Source: Brachycybe producta
Taxonomy: Eukaryota > Arthropoda > Diplopoda > Playtdesmida > Andrognathidae
Length of the DNA stretch: 64,000 nt
Assembly (NCBI GenBank): GCA_036925085.1
Contig: JAUPFP010000008.1
Coordinates: 7,254,777-7,318,776 of the forward strand
Direction: 5' to 3'
The translations under genes were made by a program, and so were the position numbers. Shown in pieces: positions 3,314 to 64,000 of the stretch. The stretch's first letter is position 1. Every line of letters begins with the position of its first letter. Under the pieces are notes generated by a model. The model saw nothing but the letters and a program-made list of their open reading frames with translations, searched no databases and had not been told where the DNA came from.

Positions 3314-3490
3314 ATGAGTTATATGACATCAATGAAACCAAAGGACATGAGATTGACCTTTAATGTTAAAATAATGAAGCGCTGAGCAGGGCATAGTAGT
3401 GTAATTGTATGTACAGGAAGGTTGTATGTATATGGCGTTTTTACTATCGCGCCGTGCGGCTCATTTGCGGGACATCGCGCTTCGAATGTG

Positions 3491-28477: not shown

Positions 28478-28846
28478 TTTATTCTGTCTTTTGTGAGCAA
28501 AATTAAAGAGAAACTAGAAAGTGTTTTAAAAACTAGAATTCCTATCCCACTAACTTAAAGGTATTTTTATATTGATATATCTTTCAAAATAATTTTTTTA
28601 ATAAACAAAAATTAAAAGTTATCGTCTGCTTTAAAGCTGGACAATTTTCAAACTGCCATAAAAGGTTTATTTTGAAAGATATCAACATGAAAATACCGAA
28701 TTAAGTGATTGATAGCTACCGTAGTTCTCAATCACTTAATGGGGTATGTCAAATAAAGAGAAACTTGAGTGTTTTAAAAACTAGAATGGTAGCTCAGCTA
28801 CGCTAACACTTTCAAAGTTTCTCTTCATTTTTCATTTAAAAGATAG
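28478..28846. repeat. Dispersed AT-rich repeat, family A, with direct and inverted internal copies
   Basis: GTGTTTTAAAAACTAGAAT occurs twice (near 28,521 and 28,769), and CTTTCAAAGTTTCTCTTCAT near 28,811 is partly its inverse. The core TTGAAAGATATCAACATGAA at about 28,672 recurs in FRMD6 introns and in the desert at 25.1 kb. It looks like a MITE family without coding capacity. Confidence 0.5.
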
Positions 28847-36785: not shown

Positions 36786-39700
36786 ATGCGACAGTCCTGT
36801 CAGTGGGTGAACACATCTTGCGGCAGCCCTTTACCGCCTGGCAAGAAATACGTTGCAGTACAATTACTCACCAAAGAAACCCTCTATTGCACCGTAGAGG
36901 TACGAAATTACATGAACACAAAGATTATGACTTTATAATTTTTTTTTAAAAATAAAAACCAAACAAAAATATCAGAAGCAATTAGTTGGATTTAAATGAA
37001 GTGGTTTCAAAATAGCCACAAATTACTCACTACAACAGGGAAATATTGCATATAAACATAAAAAAATGTTTTAGGGTCTTGGCACACAGACCACATTTCG
37101 TGGTCAATTTGGAGTGCAAAATAAAGTTGCAGTTGGTAGAGTTGTAGTTGCAACGTGGTTGCAATATGCGTTTTTTATCGATAGATTCGAAGTGGTCGGT
37201 TTTTTACGACATTTGGCTTCATTTTGCAGTCGAAATCGACCGTCAAAAGTATTTTGTGAATTTCAAAACTCTTAAAAGTAAAAATATTAAAATTGGGTTG
37301 GCCACGTTTGTGACGTCACACATAGCCCTGCTCAACTATAAAAATTCCTGACACGTGTTTAATTTGTACAAACAAAAAAACATGTAACGTAATTAATCGA
37401 AATCTTTCCAAAAATTACTATTTTAATAAAATAAAAATTGAAACTATTATCATTGATTTTTTTTAACTTTTATTTTTAAAGAAATCACGTGAAATTTAAA
37501 TGGCGTTTTAAATTACGCAACTCAGAAGCATATTACTAAAAATACTACGACGATTTATTTGGTTCTGTGAAAAAAAAACGCACAATATAAAAGCTCACAC
37601 GAAAATTGCGCACAAAAAAAACCTGGTGTCAAAAATGTGGACAGGGAAAATTGCTCACACCGAAAAATACCCACACAAAAAAATACGCACATAGAAAAAT
37701 TCTCGTATTGACAATATTATAAAATAGTTTTTTTTTTACAAACTGCCCTCCTAGACCCCCTGCAACAAGCTTAATTTAATACTCTTTCATTCATGTGCGT
37801 ATTTTTCTTATGCGCATTTATGACAGTGGGCTTTTTTTCGGTGCGCAATTTTCATGTTGTTTTTTTCCATGTGCTTTTTTTTTTCTGGTCACCAATTTAT
37901 ATAATTGTTAATAATACAAGTTGCGATTTTTTCATTTTTATTTTCTAGACTAAAAGTCGTGTCCAACTCGTTTTTGATCAAGTGTCTTCGTATTTAGGTT
38001 TAAAGGATGCTGAACTTTTTGGATTAGCTCTGCTTTCGGGTATAGTAGGCCTAACATTTTAAAATTGATCTTTTATTGTTTACGAAGTTGTATTTCCGGT
38101 TAGAAACTGAATGAATGTAGAATTAAAGGTGTGTAGAGAGGGTAAAAATCTGCAATAATAAAATTAATAATTTAATGATTTGTAAGTTTGAGTTTTTGTA
38201 AATACAGGCACAGGAAATGACATAAAATTTAGTATTAGGTTCATGTTTATTTTTAAATTCAGAAGATTCAGAGAGAAAAAAAAACTTGACACTTGAAACT
38301 TCAAATTGAATCCTCTGTTCAGGGGTCCAATACAGAGGTACAACGTAAAAAGGTGTTTTCTATGTTGAAATCGTGTTCAGAGGTTTTTTTTTTAAGTTGA
38401 TGCTTTAATATTAGTCCAAGTGTCCTTCTTGAATATGTTATATTTTTTGTTAATTACACCTCCTGGGCTGAAAAAGGACCAAAGAGATTTTAGATTTTCA
38501 TTGGTTCTCACGCCGTTCACTTTTCATTACCCTGGGAAAAAGGGTGGGGGAAGGAGAGGAGAGGGGCCACTTTGGGTCACTGCACCCATCGGAGAGAACG
38601 AAGATCCCACATTTGGAATGCCATCCGACGTCCATCCCACCCCTTTCCCCCCTCGTTTCACTCACAAAGTCAATGAATGAATGATTGATCAAAATTATTT
38701 TCACCTTTTTTAAAATTAATGTTTTTTATTTTTTTTTGGTGATTTTTTTTTAATTTAGATGGAGAATATCTGTTTTTGGATTTAAATATTAAACTGTCAA
38801 AATTAACTTCTAAAACATGGAAATCGCAGAACAACCACGTTAGTAGAATTTTTTGGTATTTCATTTTTGAACATTGTGGGAAAAAAAACAACTACATGTA
38901 TTTTTGAATTTTTAAACTTATAAGTGTAAGTGAAAAAAAACGTTCATAGATGAGTTTCACGACAATATTTTTAAAAATAAACTTTTTATGGAACTTTGAA
39001 ACTGATTTATTTTTCAGCTTAAAATTTTTTTTACACAGAATTCTTATTTATTATGCATTCAAAAAGTAACGCCAAAGAGACAATAAGTGTTGAAAACTAG
39101 AACTTTAAATATAGTATTTTCATGTTGATATCTTTCAAAATAAACTTCATATAATCATAAATTATAAATATGTCTACTTAAAGTTGGTTCATTTTCAAAA
39201 TACTTTTTAAGTAATTTCTTTACTTTTTCTAGTTTTTAAAACATTTTTAAAGTTGTTTTCAAAACGCATGTTATTCAGAGTTACGGTTATATGCTGTAAA
39301 AAGTTTATTTTTTTAACGATATATGGTCATAAAAATATATGTAGATTGCATTCACTTCTCAAATGATGTGCACTGTGTTAAAAATGAACAATAAAATGCA
39401 CATTTTGTTTTTGTCGTTGCCAATTTCAATGGAGGTTTCAATTTATTTTTAAGGGTTTGGACAGCATTGGGCGCACTCTTCTCAGTTTGCACCTTCGCAT
39501 CCAGTACTATGTCGATTGTCCGCTGTTGGTGCGAGACAAGCAAACGAGGCATCACTATTTCCTGCAGCTAAAGAGCAGTTTTCTTCGACACTGCCAAGCA
39601 TGCTCGGAGGAACGGTGCTTTCTTTTAGCCGCTTGTGCTCTTCAAGCCGAAGTAGGCAACTACAACGATGACAGGCACCACAACAAGCATTACTTCGAGC

Positions 39701-42700
39701 CTACGGATTATTTTCCTTCTTGGGTAAGCACAACGTTTGTGCATTTTTTCTATCTTCTGTCTTTATTTTTAAGTTTAAATTTTTTTTTTGAATATTGTTG
39801 TAGATCTTGGAACGTTTAGGCGAAGACTATGTCGTTCAAAACGTTCCGTCGATCCACAAAGATTACGTTGGTTATAGCAAAGGAGAAGCGGAAATGGCAT
39901 TCATCAAGGAAGCGTCGGTGCCGGACGCTCCTCATAACTTGCATGTTTATAAACTCAAAAAGAAGAAGAACGATCTCCTCGGCTCTGTTTGGCTTGCAGT
40001 CTGTTCGAAAGGAATCGAGATTTACGAAGTGAATTTTTTTTTTTTCTTCTTTTAACTTTTTGCAATTATTGAAATGTGTCGTGTTTGCTGTAATGAAGCT
40101 TTTTTTATCATACAGAACGGCGGTACCTCGAGCCCAACGTGGAAACTTGTCTCGACGTTTTTATGGGCAGACATTGGAAAACTTTATTTTGAAGTAAGTT
40201 TTATAAGAATTAGTTAATTTGGCACACTTATGGCTGCATTTTGCACGGGTGGTGGTGTGATTAGAAAACTTCGTTTACACGTTTTCAAAAGAACTTTATG
40301 AAGAATTTGAAAGGGTGTTATAATCTAGAAGTTTAACGTAACATAAACATGTTGACATCATTTTTCATATATTTGCATGAGATTTTTGTCTAAAAAATTT
40401 AAAATGAACTTTTTATGACAACTTTAAATTTTCTGATTTTGCTTTAAAAAGAATTTTAAGAAACAATTAAATGAGTTTTAGAAACTCGAAGGGTAATGTG
40501 ACATACAGCACAATCGTTTATTGTTCGATTGGTCCAAAAGTGCTGTATCACAATCAAGATTTGATTGGTTTCAAACTTGATATCAACATGAAAATACCTC
40601 TTATAGCAACATTCATTTTTTTTATTAAAAAAAAAATAAATTGTTATAGAAGAAAAAGGCCTGGTAAAATAAACTTTTATAATCAAATGATTTTCTAGCC
40701 AAGGATAATCTCTGTGGAATTTAACATCAATTTAATTGGTTCCATATAGAAAAAGAAGTTTGAAATACGTGCGGTAACATATTCGGATACAAGGAAGTTT
40801 ACTTACTTTACTGGAAACGACGACAAGTCGAAGCACCTTTTGTATCTTTGTCGTGCGACGCATCAGTTCAATCTTGCCATCCAGCCTCGAGTACAGGAGT
40901 TGAAACGTCTAGAATCAGAAGGTTCTGTACATTTTGTTGACTGTATGTGGTTTATGTTCTTTTGTACCGTTTTTGATTGGATTAGTTACTCTGGCTATGT
41001 AAAGCCAGAAAATATAAAAACAACACAAATCCTAATATGCAATTAAGCAGCTGGTATCAATTGATAAGATTTGAATTTGAATAATTTGTAATTACTTTAC
41101 AAGCAACTATAAAAAATTTATGCTTTGTCATAAACACCTATGAATTCCACAAAATATTGTTTTTCATTCAATGAATCCTTTGGAAGTGAGTTTCGTTGTC
41201 GAGTAAGTGTTACAACAAACGAAGAACAATATTCATCTGTTTGCGGAGAAATCGTTTAATTTTTTTTAGGAGTGGTCACCCATTCCCAAATATAATGCTG
41301 GATCACGTTTACCCGAAGTTGGTTTCGTTTGAAAATATTTGAGACTAAATTCTGACTGTTTTACAAGTAAATTGTTCTACCCGAGAGCTATTGAGATCAT
41401 TTATGTTACACTTTCATTATAGCTGTATTTACCACAAGCAAATTTGGCAGTCCTACGTTGCTTTATTCAATCGATTGAATTAATTCGTTTCTACAAAACG
41501 AACGAATGCTATAATGTTTGCTTTCGTTTTCTCTTACAGAAAAGAAAAACTACCGTGAATTGTATATCTATAGCGATACATCGGATTTGGAGTGGGAACA
41601 GGAGCACGGACCTTTAGTAATGTCTCTTCACGATTTTAACACGCTTTCAAAGAAAGGCAAAGTTCCAAATGACCAGAGGACTTCTGTAATTAGCAATGCT
41701 AGTTCTGCAACTACGTCTGGTATTGTTAGTGATCGCGTCCATAGTTTGGATGGCAGTGAAGACGAAATGGAACTGAGCCGAGAGCCTTTGGAGAGTCCGC
41801 AGCCACCATCGGAGCAACTATTAAAAGGTGAGTTCAGTCAATTACGGTTGATTTAAAAATGTTTTGTGGAGAATTTTTGAATATTGATGTCTGTATATTT
41901 CTTATGCAAATTAAAAAAAAAATAAAGTTGATTTTAAACTATAAAAATTAGAAACGATTTTTGTATCATTAACATTTTTGAAAAACATTTTTTAATAATA
42001 GTTGAAAAAAGGCTACATTTTTATTTGCTTTTAAATTAGCCAGTTCTCATCCACAGTAAAAAGTTTATTTTTAATGATATCGACTATTGATTATTTGCGG
42101 TTTTTTCTTTCTCTCAGTTGCTGCGGAACACGAACTGCAATCAGATGTGTCTAAACTGCCATCACCTGGACCATTGAGGAACGCTTTGTCCGTCGATGAT
42201 TTTTTATTGCCATCTCCACTAGTTTCTACGTCACCGTGTTTGCATGATGAATGTGGCCACAGTTCGTCGTCCGAGAGGAGCACATCCACTGTTCGCTCAT
42301 GTTTCTCTCTAGTCAAATCCGAAACCGTCGCCGCTGCCGCCGTTGCTCCAAAGATGATGACTGTTTCTCACCACTCTGCATCCACCTCTGACACGTTTAG
42401 CAGCTTCGATCACAGTTACACAAGTAGTATCGATTCTTCGACGACGAATGCAGCATCCGGAGCAGATCAAAACTCTCCCAAATCAGCTCCGAGGCCACCT
42501 CAAAGAAGTTCGGAGCATTTCTTGAAACCTACTACATCTCCGAGTGGTTTCGCCACTGTTCCAAATTGCTCTCTCAATGATAATTCTAAGTTATCCATGC
42601 GTTTCGAGACAATTTCACCACTAGTGCCTCGTGTGGTTCAGCAACCGTTTGCTTCCAATGGTGCACATTCGTGGTCGTCGAAATGTAGGTTTTCTCAGGA

Positions 42701-45014
42701 AGGTGCAGGTGTTCCCATGGGTCTTGGGAGTTCGATTTACAATGCGCGCATGTCGAGTACAAACGTAAGACCCGTGGGGCTTCAAGGCAACCTTTACTTT
42801 GCTCAGCACCCGGTTTCTCACTGTCGGACGAGAATTGGCGTGTCATCACTTTGTAGAACTAACGGAAACTTAAGTTCTCCGGGACAAAGGCTTCCATTGT
42901 CTAAGTTTGCCGCGATACCTAGACGTCTGTCGTCCAATGCGGATTTCGTGCCAACTTGGCTCCACTCTACAAACAGTAACTTACTGACATATGGAAAGTC
43001 GGTTTCTGTTCCGAATGTAATCGGCGAAAACGAGTGTTTGCCACCGTGTGCAGTCGCCACTTTTCCTCCGCCTGCAACGTCCGCTTATCGAAATGGATAC
43101 TTTTGCGAAGAGGCTTTACCTCTGTATCCGCACGTGCCCATTTCGGTCGCCACGGCTAAGACGTCTCGAACTTATCACTGGAGCGTGCCTAACTCTTACG
43201 TCAAGGAGAGGGACTTACTCGCGTGCTATCCAGACCTTCCAATTCCTCCACCAAGGGAGTTCGCCTGTATTCCTCCACCGCCTCCATATCGCAATCCTCT
43301 GAGGACGACACACAACAACAGCAGCAGCAACAACAACAACACTTTGACTTCTGTCATTTCCGATTTTATACCTCCACCTGTTGGTTTTAATCAAGATGGT
43401 GTTGCTACAATAAGGACACAAATCCCTTTGCAAAGGACTTTGTTACCAATAAAGGCAAGATCGGAGGATAACATTCTACTGCAGGGTGGTTCATCTTCGG
43501 TTTGTTCGCTACTGCATCCCAATAGAAACCATTTAGAAGGAAAAGAATGCAGTATGTCAGCGGTTTCTCCTCCATGTTATGGTTCCAAGGTAATTTGTTA
43601 TTATTGCATCAGGTTTCTGTTGTTTTACAATACCGGAGATTTTGACAGCGAAAATTGTTGAAAAATTTCAATTGAAATTAAAGTGGTTTTAAAACTCCCT
43701 CGCGAACTCTGTTTATTCGGGCTTTCAGGCACAAAATGAACACGAACTTGAAAGTATTATAGTGGGTAGTTCAAGCACTCAAGAGGGTATCTTTCAAATA
43801 CACGTTTTATGGCAGTTTGAAAAGGACCCAACTTTAAAAAATCATGCTTATCAGTCACGATAGCCTATGTTTAATTAATTGTAAATAAAAAGTTTACTTT
43901 GAAACACATCAACATGAAAATACCCTTAAGTGATTGAGCTACTCTTCTAGTTTCTAAAACACTTTGTAGTTTCTTTTCATTTTATTCTTGATAGACATAA
44001 TACAGTGTAAAAACGTGCGTTAGATAAATTGCAAACAATTTGAAAGTCTAAAATGTTTGCATTTTTTAATAAAAGGAACAAAAAACGAAGACAAGAAAAC
44101 AACTGCAACTTGTCGCAAAAATATATTAAATAAGTATGTATTTGTAATAAGTTGACTAAAATTAGTGAACTAACCAAATTTCAAATCAAAATTTTTAGTT
44201 TTTGATGTCAATTGGTTATACAAATGATACCAAACACGACACCCATTGGTCCTACCATATCTCCTGTTCAGCGCAATGAATCAGTTTCCCTTTAACTGTT
44301 ACTTTTTATTGCAGTCATATTTTATTCCGTTTGTTTTCTAATTTGACGTAGGTACCCGTTGATAATCTTGCAGCGAGGAAAGTTCCACTGTCCATTCGTG
44401 TTCAACGTAGTGCATCGAGTGTAACTTCAAATGTACAAAGTAGAGAGGAACTTTTAGATTTTCAGAAACTTCGAGAGCGAAGCAGGCATCTAGAGGTACC
44501 TCTCATTACAGCCCTGTGTAACGATCGGACACTCATGGCGCTGCCTGAAAGTTGTGACCATCAGCACAGTGCAACTGTTGATTCTCGACGTCTCTCCTAC
44601 TGCCCACCGCCTTCGGCAAAGGTGGCAAGTGTTCCGTCTGTTGGACGGCCTTTGAGTTGGCATGTAGATAGTGGATTTGGCAGTTGCGGTGGTGAATTGG
44701 TTGGAATGGTCCGAGTGCCGTGCACTATGAATAACAATTATCTTCAGGCAAGTGCACTGGTACCTCCCGCACTTGGTTCCTCAACAACAGGAAAGTTTAC
44801 ATCGCAAACGTTCAATTCCCCTGTACTATCGGAGATAGTTCACGGACAATCTACTAATGTCCCTGTGGCATCTACTATGTCTTTTGTAACCAATGCCAGA
44901 AAATCAGCAGGACCACTTCAACACTTTGGTCGATATGCTGTGCCGTCATATCGTGGCATAACCTTGGACACTTCTGAGAATGGTTCCTCCAGTCGAATGA
45001 CAAGTCTACAATGA
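36786..45014 (+). CDS. FRMD6: FERM-domain protein of the FRMD6 (Willin)/Expanded type
   Basis: This is a cortical FERM protein; in flies Expanded, and in vertebrates FRMD6, act upstream of Hippo/Warts signalling. Exons: 36786-36899, 37949-38039, 38759-38838, 39454-39723, 39804-40028, 40116-40193, 40750-40921, 41540-41827, 42118-43589 and 44352-45014, totalling 3453 nt or 1150 aa. FERM F1 is about residues 20-115. F2 (CFLLAACALQAEVGNYN, HYFEPTDYFPSW) is about 135-235. F3 (GSVWLAVCSKGIEIYE, FLWADIGKLYFEKKKFEI, KFTYFTGNDDKSKHLLYL) is about 245-340, followed by EKKNYRELYIYSD as in human FRMD6. The remaining 800 residues are Ser/Pro-rich and probably disordered, with PPPY at 827-830 and PPCY at 924-927. 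Human FRMD6 is about 620 aa and fly Expanded about 1430. The ATG is preceded by an in-frame TGA, so this is the likely start; 5' UTR exons may lie upstream. Confidence 0.9.
37090..37268. mobile_element. Uninterrupted copy of the 16.7-kb MITE family, in FRMD6 intron 1
   Basis: It begins CACACAGACCACATTTCGTG and ends around TCGAAATCGACCGTC, imperfectly inverted like the ends at 16,678-17,045. GTTGCAGTTGGTAGAGTTGT in its middle corresponds to the region where the other copy carries the nested element. Confidence 0.5.
37560..37905. mobile_element. Inverted-repeat element in FRMD6 intron 1
   Basis: ACGAAAATTGCGCAC on the left is inverted as GTGCGCAATTTTCATGT on the right, with further ACGCACA/TGTGCGT pairs. 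Its middle contains AGACCCCCTGCAACAAGCTT (about 37,753), which is shared with the element at 45,772-46,094. It is non-coding. Confidence 0.45.
39062..39245. repeat. Family A repeat copy in FRMD6 intron 3
   Basis: GTATTTTCATGTTGATATCT at about 39,115 is the inverse of the family core seen at 28.67 kb. It is followed downstream by CTAGTTTTTAAAACATTTT. This marks a copy in reverse orientation inside the intron. Confidence 0.5.
40200..40749. other. FRMD6 intron 6, containing family A repeat sequence
   Basis: GATATCAACATGAAAATACC at about 40,579 is the family A core. A decayed inverse lies near 40,340. The rest is AT-rich with no gene. Confidence 0.45.
43720..43985. repeat. Family A repeat copy in FRMD6 intron 9
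   Basis: ACATCAACATGAAAATACCC followed by TTAAGTGATTGAGCTACT and CTAGTTTCTAAAACACTTT matches the 28.5-kb copy in order. An inverted GTATCTTTCAAATACACG block lies at about 43,787. Confidence 0.5.
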
Positions 45015-45439
45015 GGCCATGATCATGGATTGTCATATAGCGAGGGAGGAAGGCTTGTTCTTATCGATTTCCCAGTCTCTTATCTAACAACTGACTTGGA
45101 CGTGCATTGGCCATGTAGTACATCATATTACGTGGAGTTAATGCCATATTATTTATTATCATTTCATTCATCCATTTATCTTTTTAAACGAACTTTCTCC
45201 AAATTGGTTAAATTTTTAAGCAAGAGTGTGTAAATATGTGTTCATTTTCTTGAATTGTATTTTTGTATATATAAGTTTGATAAAAATTATTGCAAGATTT
45301 TTTTCGTTTTTCACTTTTTTCGTTATTACAGTAATGGCAAAATGAATAAGATATGCCTGACATAATACTGAGCCAGCATTCTACATTGAATGAGCAGATA
45401 AAACGCCCACTGTCCCCTGAATATCTCAGGATTTTTTCA
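45015..45439 (+). other. Presumed FRMD6 3' UTR and flank
   Basis: This is AT-rich sequence after the stop codon. No canonical AATAAA is seen before the inverted-repeat structure begins; AATAAG occurs near 45,338. Nothing else is recognised. Confidence 0.4.
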
Positions 45440-45560
45440 TTATCTGACATTTTTTACTTTTTTGAATTTATGGGCTTTTCTGGTCCTTAAACGTCTGTTG
45501 GGGCCCCTCCTGAATTTGTTTCAGTGCTTTTCAGGACATTTAGATTTTCATTTTTGGTCA
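45440..45560 (-). repeat. Outer inverted repeat, left copy
   Basis: It contains TTTTTACTTTTTTGAATTTA, GGTCCTTAAACGTCTGTTG and TTTCAGTGCTTTTCAGGAC. The same blocks appear in reverse complement and reverse order at 58,780-58,895. Further partial copies of the same sequence, in both orientations, occur at about 45,585-45,650 and 46,497-46,790. Confidence 0.65.
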
Positions 45561-45650
45561 TTTTTTTTGGAAAATTTTCAAAAAATGCCATAAATGGAAA
45601 GACTTCTAGATGCGCTGAAAAGCACTGAAATGAACTCAGGAGGGCCCAAC

Positions 45651-46488
45651 CAGTGGCGTAGCTAGGCTTGGTTGCGCTCCCCCGCCGCGTAAAACTTTGC
45701 GCCCCCCCCCCCGTGGCTGCTTAAAACGTTGCGCTCCCTTTAAGTCCCCCTCCACTTAGCCTCATACTGGGGGGAGGTGCTATTTTGATGAACGGCGGAT
45801 CAGTAAGAACAGTCGGAAGGTTAGGTTTAGTAAAACGAAGCTTGTTGCAGGGGGCCTGGGGGGCGCAGCCCCCATTTTTTTTAGCGTTATTAAATCAAAT
45901 TTGTCCATTTTTCCGACCGTTCCTCCCATTGAACAAATTACAGAACAGTCGGAACAATGGACTAATTTGATTTAATAATTCTTTAAAAAAAAAAGTCGGG
46001 GTCTGCGCCCCCAGACCCCCTGCAACAACTTAATTTTACCGACTGTTCGTACCGTTTTTCGGACCTTTCCGCTGTTCATCAAAATAGTACCCCCTATAAA
46101 AATTTCTAAGCACAATAAACGAAATGAAAGTCGATTTATATTTGAAAATAACTGAATAAATTAAGCGAGTGATTCGGAATCACTTGCTTAATTTATTCAA
46201 TTATTTTTGAAAATACATCGACTTTCATTTTGTTTTTTGCGCCCCCAAACTTCCTGCGCCCCCCCCCCCCCCCGCAGTTGCGGGTCTGGTGGGTCCCTAG
46301 CCACTGCCCGCCCCTCCCATGAATATTTACTGGTGCAACTATGTAGTTTTTAAAAGTAAATATTAAATGAAAGTCGATTTATTTTCGAAAATAAATCGAC
46401 TTTCATTTTGTTTTTTGCACCCCCAAACCTGCTGCGCCCCCCCCCCCCCCGCAGTTGCGAGTCCTGCGGGTGCCTAGCTACGCCAGTG
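45651..46488. mobile_element. Non-autonomous hAT-like element inserted in the left shoulder, with 8-bp target duplication
   Basis: The left end is CAGTGGCGTAGCTAGG and the right end is CCTAGCTACGCCAGTG, which are inverted apart from the outermost bases. It is flanked by identical GGCCCAAC at 45,643-45,650 and 46,489-46,496. The interrupted host repeat resumes cleanly after the right duplication. There is no transposase frame. The right end is duplicated: GCAGTTGCGGGTCTGGTGGG (about 46,275) and GCAGTTGCGAGTCCTGCGGG (about 46,451) each follow a C-homopolymer. Each also follows a palindrome containing TCGACTTTCATTTTG. Confidence 0.75.
45772..46094. mobile_element. Inner inverted-repeat element within the hAT-like element
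   Basis: GTGCTATTTTGATGAACGGC on the left is inverted as GCTGTTCATCAAAATAGTAC on the right. A second inverted pair inside is TTGTTGCAGGGGGCCTGGGG against AGACCCCCTGCAACAA. The core palindrome is built around TTATTAAATCAAATTTGTCC. It shares a central block with the 37.6-kb element in FRMD6 intron 1. Confidence 0.5.
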
Positions 46489-46789
46489 GGCCCAACAGAC
46501 TTCACAGGACCATAAAAACACATGAATTCAAAAAGGAAAATTTTTCAAAAAATGACAAAAAATGAAAGTACTCTAGATGCGCCAATAAGCACTAAAATTA
46601 ACTTGGGCCCAACAGACTTCAGAGGAATGTAAAAACCCATCAATTCAAAAAAGTAAAAATTGTCCAAAAATTGAAAATTTTACAAGCCCAAAAGTAAACA
46701 TTCAAAAAAGTAAAATGTTTCAAAAAACGAAAATTTTTCTCCTGAGTTCATTTTAGTGCTTTTCAGGGATGAAGACTCATTTTTTACTG

Positions 46790-46967
46790 TCGAAAAAGCG
46801 TCGGCCGATCCCGGTCGGTTAGGACCCGGCATGGGATGGCCAACCCCGGGCCCACGTTTGACCAACCGTGGTCATATGTGGACCGACCGTGGTCAAAGGT
46901 GACCACGGGGCCATACGTTGGGCAACGGTAAAAAGAGTTACGCCTCAGGGGAGTAACCCCCCCCCCC
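46790..46967. other. GC-rich spacer with repeated GACCACGG palindromes
   Basis: The sequence between the outer repeats and the left array contains CCAACCGTGGTCA, CGACCGTGGTCAA and GTGACCACGGGG within about 70 bp, plus CCGATCCCGGTCGG. It ends in a C11 run directly abutting the first 23-bp unit. I do not recognise it, and it has no obvious counterpart at the right border. Confidence 0.5.
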
Positions 46968-49590
46968 GCCATTTTGTGTCCATTTCGCCGCCATGTTGTG
47001 TATTTCGCCGCCATTTTGTCTGTTTTCGCCGCCATTTTGTCTGTTTTCGCCGCCATTTTGTGTCCATTTTCGGCGCCATTTTGTGTCCATTTTCGGCGCC
47101 ATTTTGTGTCCATTTTCGGCGCCATTTTGGGTCCATTTTCGCCGCCATTTTGGGTCCATTTTCGGCGCCATTTTGTGTCCATTTTCGGTGCCATTTTGTG
47201 TCCATTTTCGCCGCCATTTTGTGTCCATTTTCGCCTCCATTTTGTGTCCATTTTCGCCTCCATTTTGTGTCCATTTTCGGCGCCATTTTGTGTCCATTTT
47301 CGCCTCCATTTTGTGTCCATTTTCGCCTCCATTTTGGGCCCATTTTCGGCGCCATTTTGTGTCCATTTTCGGCGCCATTTTGTGTCCATTTTCGCCGCCA
47401 TTTTGTGTCCATTTTCGCCTCCATTTTGTGTCCATTTTCGCCTCCATTTTGTGTCCAATTTCACCGCCATTTTGTGTCCATGTTCGCCGCCATTTTGTGT
47501 CCATGTTCGCCGCCATTTTGTGTCCATTTTCGCCACCATTTTGTGTCCATTTTCGCCTCCATTTTGTGTCCATTTTCGAAGCCATTTTGGGCCCATTTTC
47601 GCCGCCATTTTGCGTCTATCTTCGCCGCCATTTTGTGTCCATTTTCGCCACCATTTTGTGTCCGTTTTCGGCGCCATTTGGTGTCCATGTTCGGCGCCAT
47701 TTTGTGTCCATGTTCGGCGCCATTTTGTGTCCATTTCGCCTCCATTTTGTGTCCATTTTCGCCGTCATTTTGTGTCCATTTTCGCCGTCATTTTGTGTCC
47801 ATTTTCGCCGTCATTTTGTGTCCATTTTCGGCGCCATTTTGTGTCCATGTTCGCTGACATTTTGTGTCCATTTTCGCCACCATTGTGTGTCCATTTTCGC
47901 CACCATTGTGTGTCCATTTTCGCCTCCATTTTGTGTCCAATTTCGCCGCCATTTTGTGTCCATTTTCGGCGCCATTTTGTGTCCATTTTCGGCGCCATTT
48001 TGTGTCCATGTTCGCCGCCATTTCGTGTCTATCTTCGCCGCCATTTTGTGTCCATTTTCGGCGCCATTTTGTGTCCATTTTCGCCGCCAATTTGTGTCTT
48101 ATTTTCGGCGCCATTTTGTGTCCATGTTCAGCGCCATTTTGTGTCCATGTTCGGCGCCGTTTTGTGTCCATGTTCGCCGCCATTTTGTGTCCATTTCGCC
48201 TCCATTTTGTGTCCATTTCGCCTCCATTTTGTGTCCATTTTCGCCGTCATTTTGTGTCCATTTTCGCCGTCATTTTGTGTCCATTTTCGGCGCCATTTTG
48301 TGTCCATGTTCGCCGCCATTTTGTGTCCATTTTCGCCACCATTGTGTGTCCATTTTCGCCTCCATTTTGTGTTTATTTTCGCCTCCATTTTGTGTCCAAT
48401 TTCGCCGCCATTTTGTGTCCATTTTCGCTGCCATTTTGTGTCTATTTTCGGCGCCATTTTGTGTCCATTTTCGCCGCCATTTTGTGTCCAATTTCGCCGC
48501 CATTTTGTACATTTCGCCTCTATTTTGTGTCCATTTCGCCTCTATTTTGTGCCCATATTGCCTCCATTTTGTGTCCATTTTCGCCTCCATTTTGTGTCCA
48601 TTTTCGCCTCCATTTTGTGTCCATTTTCGCCTCCATTTTGTGTCCATTTTCGCCGTCATTTTGTGTCCATTTTCGCCGCCATTTTGTGTCCATTTTTGGC
48701 GCCATTTTGTGTCCATTTTTGGCGCCATTTTGTGTCCATTTTTGGCGCCATTTTGTGTCCATGTTCGCCGCCATTTGGTGTCCATTTTCGCCGCCATTTT
48801 GTGTCCATTTCCGCTGCCAGTTTGTCCATTTCGCCAGCATTTTGTCCATTTCGCCTCCATTTTGTGTCCATTTTCGCCGCCATTTTGTGTCCATTTTGTT
48901 GCCAATTTTGTGTCCATTTTCGCCGCCATTTTGTGTCCATTTTCGCCGCCATTTTGTGTCCATTTTCGCCTCCATTTTATGTCTATTTTCGCCGCCATTT
49001 TGTGTCCATTTTCGCTGCCAGTTTGTCCATTTTCGCTCTCATTTTGTGCCTATTATCGGCGCCATTTTGTGTCCATTTTCGCCGCCATTTTGTGTCTATT
49101 TTCGCCGCCATTTTGTGTCCATTTTCGCCATCATTTTGTGTCCATTTTCGCCGCCATTTTGTGTCCATTTTTGGCGCCATTTTGTGTCCATTTTTGGCGC
49201 CATTTTGTGTCTATGTTCGCCGCCATTTGGTGTCCATTTTCGCCGCCATTTTGTGTCCATGTTCGCCGCCATTTTGTGTCCATTTCCGCTGCCAGTTTGT
49301 CCATTTCGCCAGCATTTTGTCCATTTCGCATCCATTTTGTGTCCATTTTCGCCGCCATTTGGTGTCCATTTCGTTGCCAATTTTGTGTCCATTTTCGCCG
49401 CCATTTTGTGTCCATTTTCGCCTCCATTTTATGTCTATTTTCGCCGCCATTTTGTGTCCATTTTCGCTGCCAGTTTGTCCATTTTCGCTTCCATTTTGTG
49501 CCTATTATCGGCGCCATTTTGTGTCCATTTTCGCCGCCATTTTGTGTCTATTTTCGCCGCCATTTTGTGTCCATTTTTGCCGCCATTTTT
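46968..49590 (-). repeat. Left arm: tandem array of the 23-bp unit (about 114 units)
   Basis: The unit on the minus strand contains ACACAAAATGGCGGCGAAA. Variants replace GGCGGCG with GGCGCCG or GGAGGCG, and a minority of units are 22 bp. On the plus strand this is read as GCCGCCATTTTGTG. A block containing CATTTCGCCAGCATTTTG recurs about 480 bp apart (48,828 and 49,306), so the array has local higher-order duplication. Confidence 0.95.
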
Positions 49591-50588
49591 GTTTTCCATT
49601 TTTTGCCATTTTTTTCATTTTTTCATTTTTCCATTTTTTCATTTTTTCTATTTTTTCCATTTTTCCATTATTTCCATTTTTTCCATTTTTTCTATTTTTC
49701 CATTTTTTCCATTATCTCCATTTTTTCCATTTTTGCCATATTTTCATTTTTTCCATTTTTTCTTTTTTTTTCCATTTTTTCCATTTTCTCTATTTTTCCA
49801 TTTTTTCCATTTTTTGCCATTTTCATTTTTCCATTTATTCTTTTTTTTGCATTTTTCCATTTTTTCCATTTTTTTCATTTTTCCATTTTTTCATTTTTTT
49901 TTTTTTTTCCATTATTTCCATTTTTCCATTTTTTCCATTTTTTTCATGTTTTCTATTTTTTCCATTTTTCCAATTTTCCATTTTTTCCATTTTTTCCATT
50001 TTCTCTATTTTTTCCATTGTTTCCATTATTTCTATTTTTCATTTTTTCAATTTTTTCCATTTTTTTCATTTTTCCATTTTTCCATTTTTTTAATTTTTCC
50101 ATTTTTTCATTTTTTCCATTTTTCCATTTTTTTCCATTTTTTTCATGTTTTCTATTTTTTCCATTTTTCCAATTTTCCATTTTTTCCATTTTTTCCATTT
50201 TCTCTATTTTTCCAATTTTTCCATTATTTCTATTTTTCATTTTTTCAATTTTTTCCATTTTTTTCATTTTTCCATTTTTTCATTTTTTCCATTTTTTCCA
50301 TTATTTCCATTTTTTCCATTTTTTTCATGTTTTCTATTTTTTCCATTTTTCCAATTTTCCATTTTTTCCATTTTTTCCATTTTCTCTATTTTTTCCAATT
50401 TTTCCATTATTTCTATTTTTCATTTTTTCAATTTTTTCCATTTTTTTCATTTTTCCATTTTTCCATTTTTCCATTTTATCCATTTTTCCATTTTTCTCAT
50501 TTTTTCCATTTTTTCATTATTTCTATTTTTTTCATTTTTTCAATTTTTTCCATTTTTTTCATTTTTCCATTTTTCCATTTTTCCCATA
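49591..50588 (+). repeat. Inner tract, left side: (TTTTTCCA)n-type low-complexity repeat
   Basis: About 1 kb is composed almost only of CCATTTTT-type words separated by T runs, with scattered CATGTTTTCTATTTTTTCC blocks that repeat every 150-200 bp. It appears derived from the 23-bp unit by loss of its CG-rich half, since CCATTTT is common to both. Confidence 0.85.
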
Positions 50589-50590
50589 AT

Positions 50591-51247
50591 AGAAAAAATG
50601 GAAAAAAGAGAAAAAATGGAAAAAATAGAAAAAATAGAAAACATGAAAAAATGGAAAAAATGGGAAAAATGGAAAAATGGAAAAATGAAAAAAATGGAAA
50701 AAATTGAAAAAATGAAAAAAATAGAAATAATGAAAAAAATGGAAAAAATGGGAAAAATGGAAAAATGGAAAAATGGAAAAAATGGAAAAATGGAAAAATG
50801 AAAAAAATGGAAAAAATTGAAAAAATGAAAAAATAGAAATAATGGAAAAATTGGAAAAAATAAAGAAAATGGAAATAATGGAAAAAATGGAAAATTGGAA
50901 AAATGGAAAAAATAGAAAACATGAAAAAAAATGGAAAAAATGGAAAAAATGGAAAAATGAAAAAAATGAAAAAAATAGAAAAATGCAAAAAAAAGAATAA
51001 ATGGAAAAATGAAAATGGCAAAAAATAGAAAAAATGGAAAAATAGGAAAAATGGAAAAAATAGAAAAAAAAGAAAAAATGGAAAAAATGAAAATATGGCA
51101 AAAATGGAAAAATGGAGATAATGGAAAAAATGGAAAAATGGAAAAAATGGAAATAATGGAAAAATGGAAAAAATTGAAAAAATGAAAAATTGAAAAAAAA
51201 ATGAAAAAATGAAAAATTGAAAAAAAAATGAAAAAAATAGCAAAAAA
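50591..51247 (+). repeat. Inner tract, right side: (TGGAAAAA)n-type repeat, inverse of the left tract
   Basis: The words switch abruptly from CCATTTTT to ATGGAAAA at a spacer of about 10 bp (CCCATAATAG, near 50,583). The right tract is about 340 bp shorter than the left. Confidence 0.85.
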
Positions 51248-53159
51248 ATGGAAAACAAAAATGGCGGCAAAAATGGACACAAAAATGGCGGCGAAAATGG
51301 ACACAAAATGGCGGCGAAAATAGACACAAAATGGCGGCGAAAATGGACACAAAATGGCGCCGAAAATGGGCACAAAATGGAGGCGAAAATAGACACAAAA
51401 TGGAGGCGAAAATGGACACAAAATGGCGGCGAAAATGGACACAAAATGGCGGCGAAAATGTACACAAAATGGCGACTAAAATGAACACAAAATGGAGGCA
51501 AAAATGGACACAAAATGGCGGCGAAAATGTAAACAAAATGGTGCCGAAAATGGACATAAAAATAATAGCGAAAATGGCGGCGAAAATGGACACAAAATGG
51601 CGGCAAAAATGGACACAAAATGGCGACAAAAATGGACACAAAATGGCGGCGAAAATGGACACAAAATGGCGGCGAAAATGGACACAAAATGGATACAAAA
51701 TGGCGGCAAAAAAAGACAAAATGTAGGCGAAAATGGACACAACATGGCGGCGAAAATGGCCACAAAATGGCGCTGAAAATGGACACAAAATGGCGGCAAC
51801 AATAGCAGTAAAAATGGACACAAAATGGCGGCAACAATAGCAGTAAAAATGGACACAAAATGGCGGCGACAATAGTGGCGAAAATGGACACAAAATGGCC
51901 GCGAAAATGGACACAAAATGGAGCCAAAAATGGACATAAAATGGCGGCGAAAACCGACACAAAATTGTGCCGAAAATGGACACAAAATGGCGCTGAAATG
52001 GACACAAAATGGCGGCGAAAATGGACACTAAATAGCGGCGAAAATGGACACAAAATGGCGGCAAAAATGGACACAAAATGGCGGCGAAAATAGACACAAA
52101 ATGCGGCGAAAATAGACACAAAATGGCGGCGAAAATAGACACAAAATGGCGACTAAAATGAACACAAATTGGCGGCGAAAATGGACACAAAATGGTGGCA
52201 AAATGGACACAAAATGGCGCCGAAAATGGACACAAAATGGAGCCGAAAATGGACACAAAATGGAGGCGAAAATGGACACAAAATGGAGGCGAAAATGGAC
52301 ACAAAATGGCCGCGAAAATGGACACAAAATGGCGGCAAAAATAGACACAAAATGGCGGCAAAAATGGAGGCGAAATGGACACAAAATTGCGGCGAAAATG
52401 GACAAAAAATGGCGGCGAAATGGACACAAAATTGCGGCGGAAATGGACACAAAATGGCGGCGAAAATGGACAAAGAATGGCGGCAAAAATGACGGCGAAA
52501 ATGGACACAAAATGGAGGCGAAAATGGACACACAATGGCGGCGAAAATGGACAGAAAATGGCGGCAAAAATGGACCTAAAATGGCTGCGAAAATGGACAC
52601 AAAATGGACACAAAATTGTGGCAGAAATGGACACAAAGTGGCAGCGAAAATGGACAAAAAATGGCGGCAAAAATGGACACAAAAATGGCGGCGAAAATGG
52701 ACACAATATGGAGGCGAAAATGGACACAAAATGGCGGCGAAATTGGACACAAAATGGCGGCGAAATTCGACACAAAATTGCGGCGGAAATGGACACAAAA
52801 TGGCGGCAGAAATACACAAAGTGGCGCCGAAAATGAACACAAAATGGCGGCGAAAATGGACACAAAATGGTGCCAAAAATGGACACAAAATGGCGCCGAA
52901 AATGGACACAAAATGAAGGCGAAAATGGACAAAAAATAGCGGCGAACATGGACACAAAATTGCGCCGAAAATGGACACAAAATGGCGCCGAAAATGGACA
53001 CAAAATGACTGCGAAAATGGACACAAAATGGAGGCGAAAATGGACACAAAATGGCGCCGAAAATGGACACAAAATGGAGGCGAAATGGACACAAAATGGA
53101 AGCGAAAATGGACACAAAATGGCGCCGAAAATGGACACAAAATGGCGCCGAAAATGGAC

Positions 53160-54865
53160 ACAAAATGAAGGCGAAAATGGACAAAAAATAGCGGCGAACA
53201 TGGACACAAAATTGCGCCGAAAATGGACACAAAATGGCGCCGAAAATGGACACAAAATGACTGCGAAAATGGACACAAAATGGAGGCGAAAATGGACACA
53301 AAATGGCGCCGAAAATGGACACAAAATGGAGGCGAAATGGACACAAAATGGAAGCGAAAATGGACACAAAATGGCGCCGAAAATGGACACAAAATGGCGC
53401 CGAAAATGGACACAAAATGGCGCCGAAAATGGACACAAAATGGCGACGAACATGGACACAAAATGGCGCCGAACATGGACACAAAATGGCGCCGAAAATA
53501 GACACAAATTCGCGGCGAAAATGGACGCAAAATGGCGGCGAAAATGGACACAAAATGGCGCCGAAAATGGACACAAAATGGTGGCGAAAATGGACACAAA
53601 ATGGCGGTGAAGATAGACACGAAATGGCGGCGAACATAGACTCAAAATGGCGGCGAAAATGGACACAAAATGGCGCCAAAAATGGACACAAAATGGCGTC
53701 AAAAATGGACACAAAATGGTGCCAAAATTGAACACAAAATGGCGGCGAACATGGACACAAAATGGCGGCGAAAATGGACACAAAATGAAGGCGAAAATGG
53801 ACAAAAAATAGCGGCGAACATGGACACAAAATGGCGCCGAAAATGGACACAAAATGACTGCGAAAATGGACAAAAAATGGAGGCGAAAATGGACACAAAA
53901 TGGCGCCGAAAATGGACACAAAATGGAGGCGAAATGGACACAAAATGGAAGCGAAAATGGACACAAAATGGCGCCGAAAATGGACACAAAATGGCGCCGA
54001 AAATGGACACAAAATGGCGCCGAAAATGGACACAAAATGGCGACGAACATGGACACAAAATGGCGCCGAACATGGACACAAAATGGCGCCGAAAATAGAC
54101 ACAAATTCGCGGCGAAAATGGACGCAAAATTGCGGCGAAAATGGACACAAAATGGCGCCGAAAATGGACACAAAATGGTGGCGAAAATGGACACAAAATG
54201 GCGGTGAAGATAGACACGAAATGGCGGCGAACATAGACTCAAAATGGCGGCGAAAATGGACACAAAATTACGCCAAAAATGGACACAAAATGGCGTCAAA
54301 AATGGACACAAAATGGTGCCAAAATTGAACACAAAATGGCGGCGAACATGGACACAAAATGGCGGCGAAAATGGACACAAAATGAAGGCGAAAATGGACA
54401 AAAAATAGCGGCGAACATGGACACAAAATTGCGCCGAAAATGGACACAAAATGGCGCCGAAAATGGACACAAAATGACTGCGAAAATGGACACAAAATGG
54501 AGGCGAAAATGGACACAAAATGGCGCCGAAAATGGACACAAAATGGAGGCGAAATGGACACAAAATGGAAGCGAAAATGGACACAAAATGGCGCCGAAAA
54601 TGGACACAAAATGGCGCCGAAAATGGACACAAAATGGCGCCGAAAATGGACACAAAATGGCGACGAACATGGACACAAAATGGCGCCGAACATGGACACA
54701 AAATGGCGCCGAAAATAGACACAAATTCGCGGCGAAAATGGACGCAAAATGGCGGCGAAAATGGACACAAAATGGCGCCGAAAATGGACACAAAATGGTG
54801 GCGAAAATGGACACAAAATGGCGGTGAAGATAGACACGAAATGGCGGCGAACATAGACTCAAAAT
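53160..54865 (+). repeat. Higher-order repeat (about 0.6 kb, 26-27 units) in the right arm
   Basis: Marker variants such as GCGGTGAAGATAGACACGAA recur at about 53,604, 54,201 and 54,821. GACAAAAAATAGCGGCGAAC recurs at 53,180, 53,799 and 54,398, and at 52,928 in a shorter 252-bp step. The spacings are close to multiples of 23. Confidence 0.8.
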
Positions 54866-55599
54866 GGCGGCGAACATAGACTCAAAATGGCGGCGAAAAT
54901 GGACACAAAATGGCGTCAAAAATGGACACAAAATGGTGCCAAAATTGAACACAAAATGGCGGCGAACATGGACACAAAATGGCGGCGAAAATGGACACAA
55001 AATGGCGGCGAACATGGACACAAAATGGCGGCGAACATGGACACAAAATGGCGGCGAACATGGACCCAAAATGGCGGCGAAAATGGACACAAAATGGCGG
55101 CGAAAATGGACACAAAATGGAGGCAATAATGGGCACAAAATGGCGCCGAAAATGAACACAAAATGGCGGCGAAAATGGACACAAAATGGAGGTGAAATGG
55201 ACAAAATGCTGGCGAAATGGACACAAAATGGCGGCGAACATGGACACAAAATGGCGCCAAAAATGGACACAAAATGGAGGCGAAAATAGACACAAAATGG
55301 CGCCAAAAATTGACACAAAATGGAGGCGAATATGGACACAAAATGGCGCCGAAAATGAACACAAAATGGCGGCGAAAATGGACACAAAATGGACAAAAAA
55401 ATGGCGGCGAAAATGAACACAAAAATGGCAGCGAAAAAAGACACAAAATGGCGGCGAAAATGGACACAAAATGGAGGCGAATATGGACACAAAATGGCGC
55501 CGAAAATGAAAACAAAATGGCGGCGAAAATGGACACAAAATGGCGCCGAAAATGAACACAAAATGGCGCCGAAAATAAACACAAAATGGCGCCGAAAAT

Positions 55600-57560
55600 G
55601 GACACAAAATGGCGGCGAAAATAAACACAAAATGGCGGCGAAAATGGACACAAAATGGCGCCGAAATTGGACACAAAATGGAGGCGAAAATGAACACAAA
55701 ATGGAGGCAAAAATAGACACAAAATGGCGGCAAAAATGGACACAAAATGGCGGCGAACATGGACACAAAATGATGCCGAAAATGAACACAAAATGGCGCC
55801 GAAAATGGACACAAAATGGCGGCGAAAATGGACACAAAATGGCGCCGAAAATGGACACAAAATGGAAGCGAAAATGGACACAAAATGGCGCCGAAAATGG
55901 ACACAAAATGGCGCCGAAAATAGAGGCGAAAATGGACACAAAATGGCGGCAAAAATGGACACAAAATGGCGGCGAAAATGGACACAAAATGGAGGCGAAA
56001 ATGGACACAAAATGGAGGCGAAAATGGACACAAAATGGCGGCGAAACGGCCACAAAATGGAGGCGAAAATGGACACAAAATGGCGGCGGAAATGGACACA
56101 AAATGGCGCCAAAAATGGACACAAAATGGAGGCGAAAATGGACACAAAATGGAGGCAAAAAATGGACACAAAATGGCGGCAAAAATGGACACAAAATGGC
56201 GGCAAAAATGCCCACAATGGCGGCGAAAATGGACACAAAATGGCGGCGAACATGGACACAAAATGGCGGCGAACATGGACACAAAATGGCGGCGAAAATG
56301 GACACAAAATGGCGCCGAAATTGGACACAAAATGGAGGCGAAAATGAACACAAAATGGAGGCAAATATAGACACAAAATGGCGGCAAAAATGGACACAAA
56401 ATGGCGGCGAACATGGACACAAAATGATGCCGAAAATGAACACAAAATGGCGCCGAAAATGGACACAAAATGGCGGCAAAAATGACCACAATGGCGGCGA
56501 AAATGGACACAAAATGGCGGCGAAAATGGACACAAAATGGCGGCGAACATGGACACAAAATGACGCCGAAAATGAACACAAAATGGCGCCGAAAATGAAC
56601 ACAAAATGGCGCCGAAAATGAACACAAAATGGCGGCGAAAATGAACACAAAATGGCGGCGAAAATGGACACGAAATGGCGCCGAAAATGGGCACAAAATG
56701 GAGGCGAAAATGGACACAAAATGGCGCCGAAAATGGACACAAAATGGAGGCGAAAATAGACACAAAATGGCGGCAAAAATGGACACAAAATGGCGGCGAA
56801 AATGGACACAAAATGGAGGCGAAAATGGACACAAAATGGAGGCGAAAATGGACACAAAATGGCGGCGAAACGGCCACAAAATGGAGGCGAAAATGGACAC
56901 AAAATGGCGGCGGAAATGGACACAAAATGGCGCCAAAAATGGACACAAAATGGAGGCGAAAATGGACACAAAATGGAGGCAAAAAATGGACACAAAATGG
57001 CGGCAAAAATGGACACAAAATGGCGGCGAACATAGACACAAAATGATGCCAAAAATGAACACAAAATGGCGCCGAAAATGGACACAAAATGGCGGCAAAA
57101 ATGCCCACAATGGCGGCGAAAATGGACACAAAATGGCGGCGAACATGGACACAAAATGGCGGCGAACATGGACACAAAATGGCGGCGAACATGGACACAA
57201 AATGGCGGCGAAAATGGACACAAAATGGCGCCGAAATTGGACACAAAATGGAGGCGAAAATGAACACAAAATGGAGGCAAATATAGACACAAAATGGCGG
57301 CAAAAATGGACACAAAATGGCGGCGAACATGGACACAAAATGATGCCGAAAATGAACACAAAATGGCGCCGAAAATGGACACAAAATGGCGGCAAAAATG
57401 ACCACAATGGCGGCGAAAATGGACACAAAATGGCGGCGAAAATGGACACAAAATGGCGGCGAACATGGACACAAAATGACGCCGAAAATGAACACAAAAT
57501 GGCGCCGAAAATGAACACAAAATGGCGGCGAAAATGAACACAAAATGGCGGCGAAAATGG
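55600..57560 (+). repeat. Second higher-order repeat block (about 0.92 kb) in the right arm
   Basis: Marker variants such as AAATGACCACAATGGCGGCG (56,480 and 57,396) and AAATTGGACACAAAATGGAG (56,318 and 57,234) recur about 916 bp apart, near 40 units. A further partial copy starts at about 55,668. Confidence 0.75.
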
Positions 57561-58779
57561 ACACGAAATGGCGCCGAAAATGGGCACAAAATGGAGGCGA
57601 AAATGGACACAAAATGGCGCCGAAAATGGACACAAAATGGAGGCGAAAATGGACACAAAATGGAGGCAAAAATGGACACAAAATGGAGGCGAAAATGGAC
57701 ACAAAATGGCGGCGAAAATAGACACAAAATGGAGGCGAAAATGGACACAAAATGGCGGCGAAATAGACAAACTGGCAGCGGAAATGGACACAAAATGGCG
57801 GCGAAAATGGACACAAAATGGCGGCAAAAATGGACACAAAATGGCGGCAAAAATGGACACAAAATGGCGGCGAAAATGGACACAAAATGGAGGCGAAAAT
57901 GGACACAAAATGGAGGCGAAAATGGACACAAAATAGAGGCAAAAATGGACACAAAATGGAGGCAAAAATGGACACAAAATGGCGGCAAAATGGACACAAA
58001 CTGGCGGCGAAAATGGACACAAAATGGAGGCGAAAATGGACACAAAATGGCGGCGAAACGGCCACAAAATGGAGGCGAAAATGGACACAAAATGGCGGCG
58101 GAAATGGACACAAAACGGAGGCGAAAATGGACACAAAATGGCGGCGAAAATGGACACAAAATGGAGGCAAAAATGGACACAAAATGGCGGCGAAACGGAC
58201 ACAAAATGGAGGCGAAAATGGACACAAAATGGAGGCGAAAATGGACACAAAATGGAGGCGAAATGGACAAAATGCTGGCGAAATGGACAAACTGGCAGCA
58301 GAAATGGACACAAAATGGCGGCGAACATGGACACAAAATGACGCCGAAAATGAACACAAAATGGCGCAGAAAATGGACACAAAATGGCGGCAAAAATGAA
58401 CACAATGGCGGCGAAAATGGACACAAAATGGAGGCGAAAATAGACACAAAATGGAGGCGAAAATGGACACAAAATGGAGGCGAAAATGGACACAAAATGG
58501 AGGCGAAAATGGACACAAAATGGCGCCGAAAATGAACACAAAACGGCGCCGAAAATGGACACAAAACGGCGACGAAAATGGACACAAAACGGCGGCGAAA
58601 ATGGACACAAAATTGCGGCGGAAATGGACACAAAATGGCGGCGAAAATGGCCACAAAATGGCGCTGAAAATGGCCACAAAATGGCGGCGAAAATGGACAC
58701 AAAATACTGGCGAAGAGCCAGTGGCGTAAAAACCCATAAATTCAAAAAAGTAAAAACTGTCCAAAAATGAAAATATTCC

Positions 58780-58895
58780 AAAAAATGAAAGTCTTCTAGA
58801 TGCCCTGAAAAGCACTGAAATGAACTCGGGAGGGCTCAACAGACTTCGGAGGACCTTAAAAACACATAAATTCAAAAAAGTAAAAATTGTAAAAA
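58780..58895 (+). repeat. Outer inverted repeat, right copy
   Basis: It carries GAAAAGCACTGAAATGAACT, CAACAGACTTCGGAGGACCT and TAAATTCAAAAAAGTAAAAA, the reverse complement of the blocks at 45,440-45,560. A partial extra copy of the last block lies just inside, at 58,737-58,757. Confidence 0.65.
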
Positions 58896-59180
58896 CAATG
58901 AAATTCTCTTGGAATTAAATAACGAAGTAAAAACTTACTTGTATCCAAAAGATACGTAATTGAGTTTTAGATGTTTGACATCTTATTGGATGATTAAATA
59001 AATTCATAAGTTTATTCCATTTGTCTCATTAATCTCAATTTCATATGACAAGATATATTGTAATGAATGTTTCCTGTGTTTTGCAATACATCTTTATTGT
59101 ATTCGTATGAACAACAAGCATTCATCGCTGGCTGCCCTTATAACACACACACACATATAATGTGCATGTAGTTAGTCAAG
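58896..59180 (+). promoter_or_regulatory. Upstream region of the CCBE1-like gene
   Basis: These 285 bp of AT-rich sequence lie between the inverted-repeat structure and the CCBE1-like ATG. A CA repeat and TATAATG-like sequence at 59,146-59,163 lie within 40 bp of the ATG. No other motif is clear. Confidence 0.35.

Positions 59181-64000
<4,820 letters not shown>

Follow-up and report, generated by a model that had tools for sequence, protein, structure and literature searches.

The window analyzed here is a 64,000-nucleotide stretch of Brachycybe producta DNA (contig JAUPFP010000008.1, positions 7,254,777 to 7,318,776), in which an 11.7-kb block of repeats lies between an upstream gene and a collagen/EGF gene. 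The block consists of two arms of the same 23-bp satellite on opposite strands, separated by simpler tracts of 9-bp units, and the flip between the strands is an inverted duplication, whose demonstrable inverted copy is limited to about 1 kb beside the axis. Both arms share one satellite/tract junction, and the right arm holds large block duplications. Judging from the sequence, the block is probably satellite (minisatellite) DNA that grew in place and whose core was duplicated in inverted, head-to-head orientation. The locus represents what seems to be a readable inverted duplication in satellite DNA, with its switch, its 72-bp spacer and the shared junction preserved, and it offers a usable case for how tandem arrays switch strand and for separating satellite palindromes from the Foldback elements that they imitate.

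The inverted duplication at the axis

Opposed tandem arrays, opposed inner tracts and a narrow axis near position 50,586 had been proposed from the letters alone (hereafter the sequence-only reading), and all three were borne out when tandem arrays were called with Tandem Repeats Finder (TRF) and core motifs were counted (Table 1). The reverse of the 9-bp tract was called by TRF at 50588–51255, and the orientation switch is sharp, at 50587/50588. Forward and reverse counts of GCCATTTTG are 61/0 in the left arm and 0/175 in the right, and those of CCATTTT over the four segments are 156/0, 54/0, 0/32, and 0/455; none of the counted core motifs is in the wrong orientation in any of the four. The CCATTTT core occurs twice per 23-bp unit, on the same strand as in the inner tract of that arm, and the base bias flips at the axis, the left inner tract being 67% T and 0.8% G and the right 68% A and 0.9% C.

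The inner tracts mirror each other more closely than shuffled tracts do. Their longest exact inverted match, whose left half ends at the axis, is 79 bp (50509–50587 against 50738–50660), where 200 shuffles of unit order gave at most 65 bp. The score of their mirror alignment is 908; 200 tracts with the left units in shuffled order averaged 693 and did not exceed 730. In a global alignment of 49578–50587 with 51269–50660, which opens 12 gaps, the 584 aligned columns are 97.9% identical, a figure that relies on cheap gap extension, and shuffled tracts still reach 93.8% with about 32 gap openings; therefore, it is the score and the gap count, rather than the identity, that are evidence for mirror symmetry. 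This alignment and the shuffle comparison begin 14 bp apart on each arm. The largest gap, 397 bp, is a stretch of the left tract (49884–50280) without a counterpart in the right tract. Identity depends on the type of alignment, being 88.5% in a local one (about 80–85% in other registers) and, for equal inner arms of 596 bp, 88.3% when every column counts and 93.8% when gaps are left out.

The inverted copy continues beyond the tracts into the satellite. The window holds two copies, and no more, of a 27-bp satellite/tract junction, at the mirror positions 49578 (+) and 51243 (−), and, with 270 overlapping windows of the right arm as controls, the mirrored order of the satellite beside it exceeds all 270 at 60, 100, 150, 200, and 300 bp and 268 of them at 400 bp. 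Farther out the order is ordinary, being equaled by 96 of the 270 controls at 600 bp and by 196 at 900 bp. At their outer edges the arms show no mirror order above controls: the observed scores at 60, 100, 150, 200, and 300 bp are reached by 46, 221, 118, 71, and 161 of the 270 controls, respectively.

Taken together, we hypothesize that in an ancestral one-strand array, in which a CCATTTT-based 9-bp tract stood beside the 23-bp satellite, one event copied the inner end, the junction and at least 300–400 bp of satellite in inverted orientation, and left a 72-bp asymmetric spacer. A 3′ end that was broken or had stalled might have folded back and primed on its own strand, in which case the right array would be the parent; alternatively, two sister ends might have fused after trimming that differed by 72 bp. 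The spacer is in right-arm orientation and the left mirror arm starts exactly at the switch, as is expected of either fold-back priming or unequal sister-end fusion. Slippage and unequal exchange may later have altered each arm separately, and arm lengths and block periods would differ for this reason.

The two satellite arms

Both arms are made of head-to-tail 23-bp units, with block duplications on the right and a higher-order periodicity on the left, which places them among satellite or minisatellite DNA, and their arrays are very unequal (2.6 kb on the left vs. 7.5 kb on the right). The left arm has a periodicity of about 452 bp (20 units): among 40 lags, unit identity peaks at lag 20 (0.165; 0.050 expected). 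Its longest exact self-match, 110 bp, does not go beyond 100 shuffles (maximum 132 bp). In the right arm, exact self-matches reach up to 509 bp, against a maximum of 119 bp in 100 shuffles, and these exact blocks recur at shifts such as 597/620, 824–916, and 1217 bp.

Unit variants have similar frequencies in the two arms (r = 0.91 over 69 non-consensus states, with only pieces of exactly 23 bp compared, 94 of 117 on the left and 281 of 330 on the right), indicating that the arms came from one pool or are still exchanging. Gapped BLAST of arm against arm was uninformative (1492 observed, against a mean of 1483 and a maximum of 1535 in 60 shuffles), and the longest exact inter-arm match, 83 bp, was equaled by 60 of 300 shuffles. 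A colinear whole-arm score of 3529 is barely above that of 25 shuffles (mean 3472, maximum 3527), and inter-arm matches of at least 60 bp number 54, above all 300 shuffles (maximum 45). A 21-bp core had no exact match in viral and prokaryote contigs, collections that are silent on the host genome, and three satellite strings had no match in full-text literature.

Satellite DNA with orientation switches is known, for example as inversions inside human alpha satellite. As in such strand-switched satellites, the array here reverses at a sharp point and its blocks are homogenized separately on each side; unlike in them, the strand changes at an inverted duplication that has a short spacer and is centered on a simpler 9-bp tract, and the 11.7-kb block as a whole sits between genes. 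An inverted or strand-switched array of this kind is not described in the excerpts of PMC4316633 and PMC12058530 covered here, and satellites derived from miniature inverted-repeat transposable elements (MITEs) are catalogued in a review of transposon-born repeats (PMC9659126, likewise in excerpt).

Alternative explanations

Among the alternatives to growth in place, the one that survives best, which we nevertheless consider rather unlikely, is a Foldback-like DNA transposon, non-autonomous and comparable to Tetris or Tm1, with tandem units in its terminal inverted repeats (TIRs), one arm having run away to satellite length, and with a transposase encoded elsewhere acting in trans. The sequence-only reading had called the structure Foldback-like, and it was right about the inverted tandem arms, the unequal copy number and the distinct inner domain, while inverted termini directly next to the arms and, at the edges tested, a target site duplication (TSD) of 7–10 bp did not materialize. 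Its statement that no transposase lies inside also stands, as a scan of 8 frames within and near the block at E 0.1 found no such domain. Long inverted repeats holding short tandem repeats are present, as in Foldback elements, although mirrored homology is demonstrable only for about 1 kb beside the axis. Composite arms of tandem units combined with a separate inner domain point to such an element, and so do several properties of known elements, taken here and below from excerpts of the papers cited. For example, unequal numbers of arm units are known in Tm1 and Galileo, the repeats of Tetris have expanded into satellite arrays (PMC4079207), and the identity of Tm1 TIR pairs averages 93.15%, comparable with the inner arms here (PMC3169594). 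Tm1 also has asymmetric motifs outside its inverted repeat, and therefore unmirrored edges alone are not exclusionary.

Against a transposon stands the absence of a TSD of 7–10 bp at the tested edges, where the best candidates at the outer-repeat ends and the array edges have 4 bp, the level of chance. At the ends of the outer repeats the best shared string is TCTC, and at least 4 bp are shared in 153 of 200 random right-flank placements; at the array edges the best is again 4 bp, with at least 4 bp in 178 of 200 random placements. The start of the GC-rich leader gave a best shared flank string of 5 bp, and a less strict search at the ends of the outer repeats found 6 bp, with 7 bp or more in 89 of 200 random placements. 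Two longer coincidences, both without a control, lack a repeat boundary on at least one side. One is a 7-bp GTAAAAA at 46928–46934 and 58726–58732, whose left copy lies off any boundary; the other consists of strings, the longest 14 bp, that are common to the flanks inside the direct outer repeats (46702–46715 and 58742–58755) and belong to the similarity of these repeats. The flanks share these latter strings because the adjoining outer repeats are direct, and thus they neither show nor exclude an insertion.

The outer sequences give a mixed answer. Their repeat, of about 130 bp per unit, is found in both orientations left of the satellite and in plus orientation only on the right. The earlier claim that outer sequences at both ends are inverted is correct for the outermost left copy (45435–45566 against 58903–58770, 78% over 136 columns), but the copies adjoining the satellite are direct (46513–46676 against 58727–58903, 77% over 177 columns). 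With adjoining repeats direct and arm edges unmirrored, conserved inverted termini next to the arms were not found, and the leader is one-sided.

Along with the dependence of the alignment identity on gaps, several observations weigh against growth in place and, in part, against this verdict on the termini. The outermost outer-repeat copies are inverted, and this pair ends at near-equal unit positions (50 and 46), as transposon termini might; however, 7 of the 10 ends of outer-unit stretches fall at unit positions 44–55, which weakens the terminus reading. For the full right copy, identity is highest with the first left plus copy (86%, 124 columns) and lower with the second (79.5%, 117 columns) and the inverted copy (79.2%, 125 columns); the partial right copy is closest to the second plus copy (94%, 49 columns), followed by the inverted copy (88%, 49) and the first plus copy (81%, 47). 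Given the mixed identities of the full copy, direct pairing is not clearly favored. In addition, a possible short inverted end, TTACGCCnCnGG, is carried at both outer satellite edges with a match of 10/12 (TTACGCCTCAGG at 46938–46949 against the reversed TTACGCCACTGG at 58729–58718), equaled by 1 of 100 shuffles before any correction for looking. We take this match as a weak hint of a transposon, not proof.

Tetris of Drosophila virilis has TIRs of up to 1,735 bp, in which a flanking domain can reach 866 bp, and 8–10-bp TSDs in described copies (PMC4079207). The present locus resembles it in the tandem repeats within inverted arms, the separate inner domain, the lack of coding capacity and the arm repeats that reach satellite length, and differs from it in having arms of 3.6 and 8.1 kb that are not bordered by an inverted flanking domain, in yielding no TSD, and in being known from a single locus. 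In root-knot nematodes, Tm1 (Mutator/Foldback) has 7-bp asymmetric end motifs, many copies and a transposase-encoding group, and its TSDs are mostly 9 bp, with 8–10 bp in 45 of 53 complete elements (PMC3169594). Short tandem units (13–15 bp in Tm1), unequal arms, a purine-rich inner motif and arms of comparable identity (about 93% on average in Tm1) are common to Tm1 and the locus, whereas a 7–10-bp TSD is missing at the tested edges here. Galileo, of the P superfamily, has TIRs of 18–1,250 bp in D. mojavensis, mostly 7-bp TSDs and a known transposase (PMC3573991); like the locus, it has long inverted repeats, and in some of them a varying number of tandem repeats, but the tandem unit of its F subfamily is about 210 bp (PMC3573991), compared to 23 bp here. 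Foldback elements are named from rye, Arabidopsis, and sea urchin (PMC4079207), and Tm1 from nematodes (PMC3169594), so that occurrence outside insects would not be the novelty that the sequence-only reading took it for.

In sum, the locus can fold like a Foldback element, but two defining features were looked for and not found, and its membership of that group is not shown; the earlier observation is partly confirmed and its interpretation partly supported. A giant transposon of Foldback type from an animal outside the insects, with full satellites (about 116 and 326 units) as arms, a 9-bp core and no unique terminal domain, is an improbable form of the same idea; if it were true, a mobile element would itself seed satellite DNA at new sites. 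Satellite growth in place is what we favor, based on the unmirrored outer edges, target duplications at chance level, direct adjoining outer repeats, block repeats that differ between the arms and open frames at chance level.

The flip could instead be an assembly artefact, in which a palindromic chimaeric read or a mis-joined repeat was built into an array that is in reality one-directional. Long-read libraries are known to produce inverted chimaeras, and exact blocks of up to 509 bp are hard to assemble. However, a simple read chimaera would mirror almost perfectly, whereas the mirror arms differ by 2% substitutions, the 397-bp gap and inner-tract gaps of 9–17 bp, and the arms differ in block structure and in the flanks and genes on each side. 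We therefore regard an artefact as quite improbable.

Long open frames of up to 1,468 amino acids run through the block because the 23-bp unit is stop-poor. A coding function was rejected: over three frames, the C-rich strand has 1 stop in the left arm and 12 in the right, as expected by chance in simulations built from 94 left and 281 right units without indels (means 1.05, 95% range 0–3, and 9.8, range 5–17). Of two array frames searched against Pfam, the right gave one sub-threshold match (AsiA) and the left none. An RNA gene was likewise rejected, with no Rfam family at gathering score and no tRNA.

A functional element, either a hairpin-RNA source of small RNAs or an array of YY1/Pho-like binding sites upstream of the collagen/EGF gene, would be the least probable explanation, and the block presumably has no cellular function. 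The 728 nt around the axis fold as DNA into one hairpin of −315 kcal/mol (mean of 20 shuffles, −124), but a T-rich tract beside its own complement folds well regardless of use; similarly, CAAAATGGCGGC, which we take to be close to the YY1/Pho consensus, has 131 occurrences in the window, none of them outside the satellite arms, but it covers positions 2 and 23, at which the unit varies most (26–33% non-consensus among 23-bp units).

Outer repeats, nested element and neighboring genes

Table 1. Features of the repeat block and its borders, in window positions.
Feature	Position	Strand	Basis
Outermost left outer-repeat copy	45431–45566	−	blastn of the right-flank monomer: 79%, 139 columns
First part of a plus outer-repeat copy, interrupted by the MITE and resuming at 46497	45580–45650	+	87% to monomer positions 44–114
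hAT-like MITE, 838 bp, nested in the outer repeat	45651–46488		ends CAGTGGCGTAGCTAGG / CACTGGCGTAGCTAGG (15/16)
Remainder of the interrupted plus copy and second plus copy	46489–46690	+	second copy 94% to 58727–58776 (49 columns)
Two outer-repeat fragments, plus (46700–46737), then minus (46739–46785)	46700–46785		blastn
GC-rich leader between outer repeat and satellite	46786–46965		printed sequence
Left arm, 23-bp satellite CCGCCATTTTGTGTCCATTTTCG	46966–49602	+	TRF, 115.9 copies (~116 units); orientation counts
Left inner tract, ~9-bp units (TTTTCCATT)	49592–50587	+	TRF; global alignment
Spacer of the inverted duplication, 72 bp, right-arm orientation	50588–50659	−	printed sequence; 79-bp exact inverted match
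Right inner tract, inverted copy of the left tract	50660–51255	−	alignment; shuffle control
Right arm, same 23-bp satellite reversed	51245–58706	−	TRF, 51245–58705, 325.7 copies (~326 units); orientation counts
Right-flank outer repeat, one partial and one full copy	58727–58903	+	self-comparison, blastn

The outer repeat forms a small palindrome of its own (45497–45650), which is 78% self-inverted over 164 columns and whose halves both start at unit position 44. The leader has no counterpart in the right flank, no self-match in the window at E 1e-4 (with 46962–58712 masked), and no Rfam or tRNA match.

The MITE nested in the outer repeat is flanked on both sides by GGCCCAAC, an 8-bp duplication, and contains three self-inverted stretches; we assume that it is of hAT type from its 8-bp TSD and the style of its TIRs. 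A 10-base form of its end string is present in literature full texts, 12- and 16-base forms were not among the matches listed, and the string was not located in the excerpts of a MITE paper (PMC2997013). A MITE-like end string, CAGTGGCGTA, is also found at the right satellite edge (58718–58729), with a similar reversed string at the left edge (46938–46949).

The DNA of the window looks animal-like. A thymidylate kinase match above Pfam cut-offs lies on the minus strand in separate coding pieces (2257–2490 and 3023–3328). Upstream of the block, a weak FERM match below the Pfam cut-off (39804–40052) and a frame that stops with TGA at 45012–45014 may belong to one upstream gene. Downstream, a calcium-binding EGF match (61874–62122) is above its Pfam cut-off and a collagen match (63180–63539) slightly below (26.9 vs. 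27.2 bits), and together with cysteine-rich frames near 59200–59780 these look like one gene, presumably of CCBE1 type. A dispersed repeat occurs in both orientations (28480–28747, 43788–44002, 39113–39199, and 25138–25190), with one copy adjoining the coding frames of the upstream gene, and further self-inverted stretches lie elsewhere in the window, at 16721–16927 and 62539–62644.

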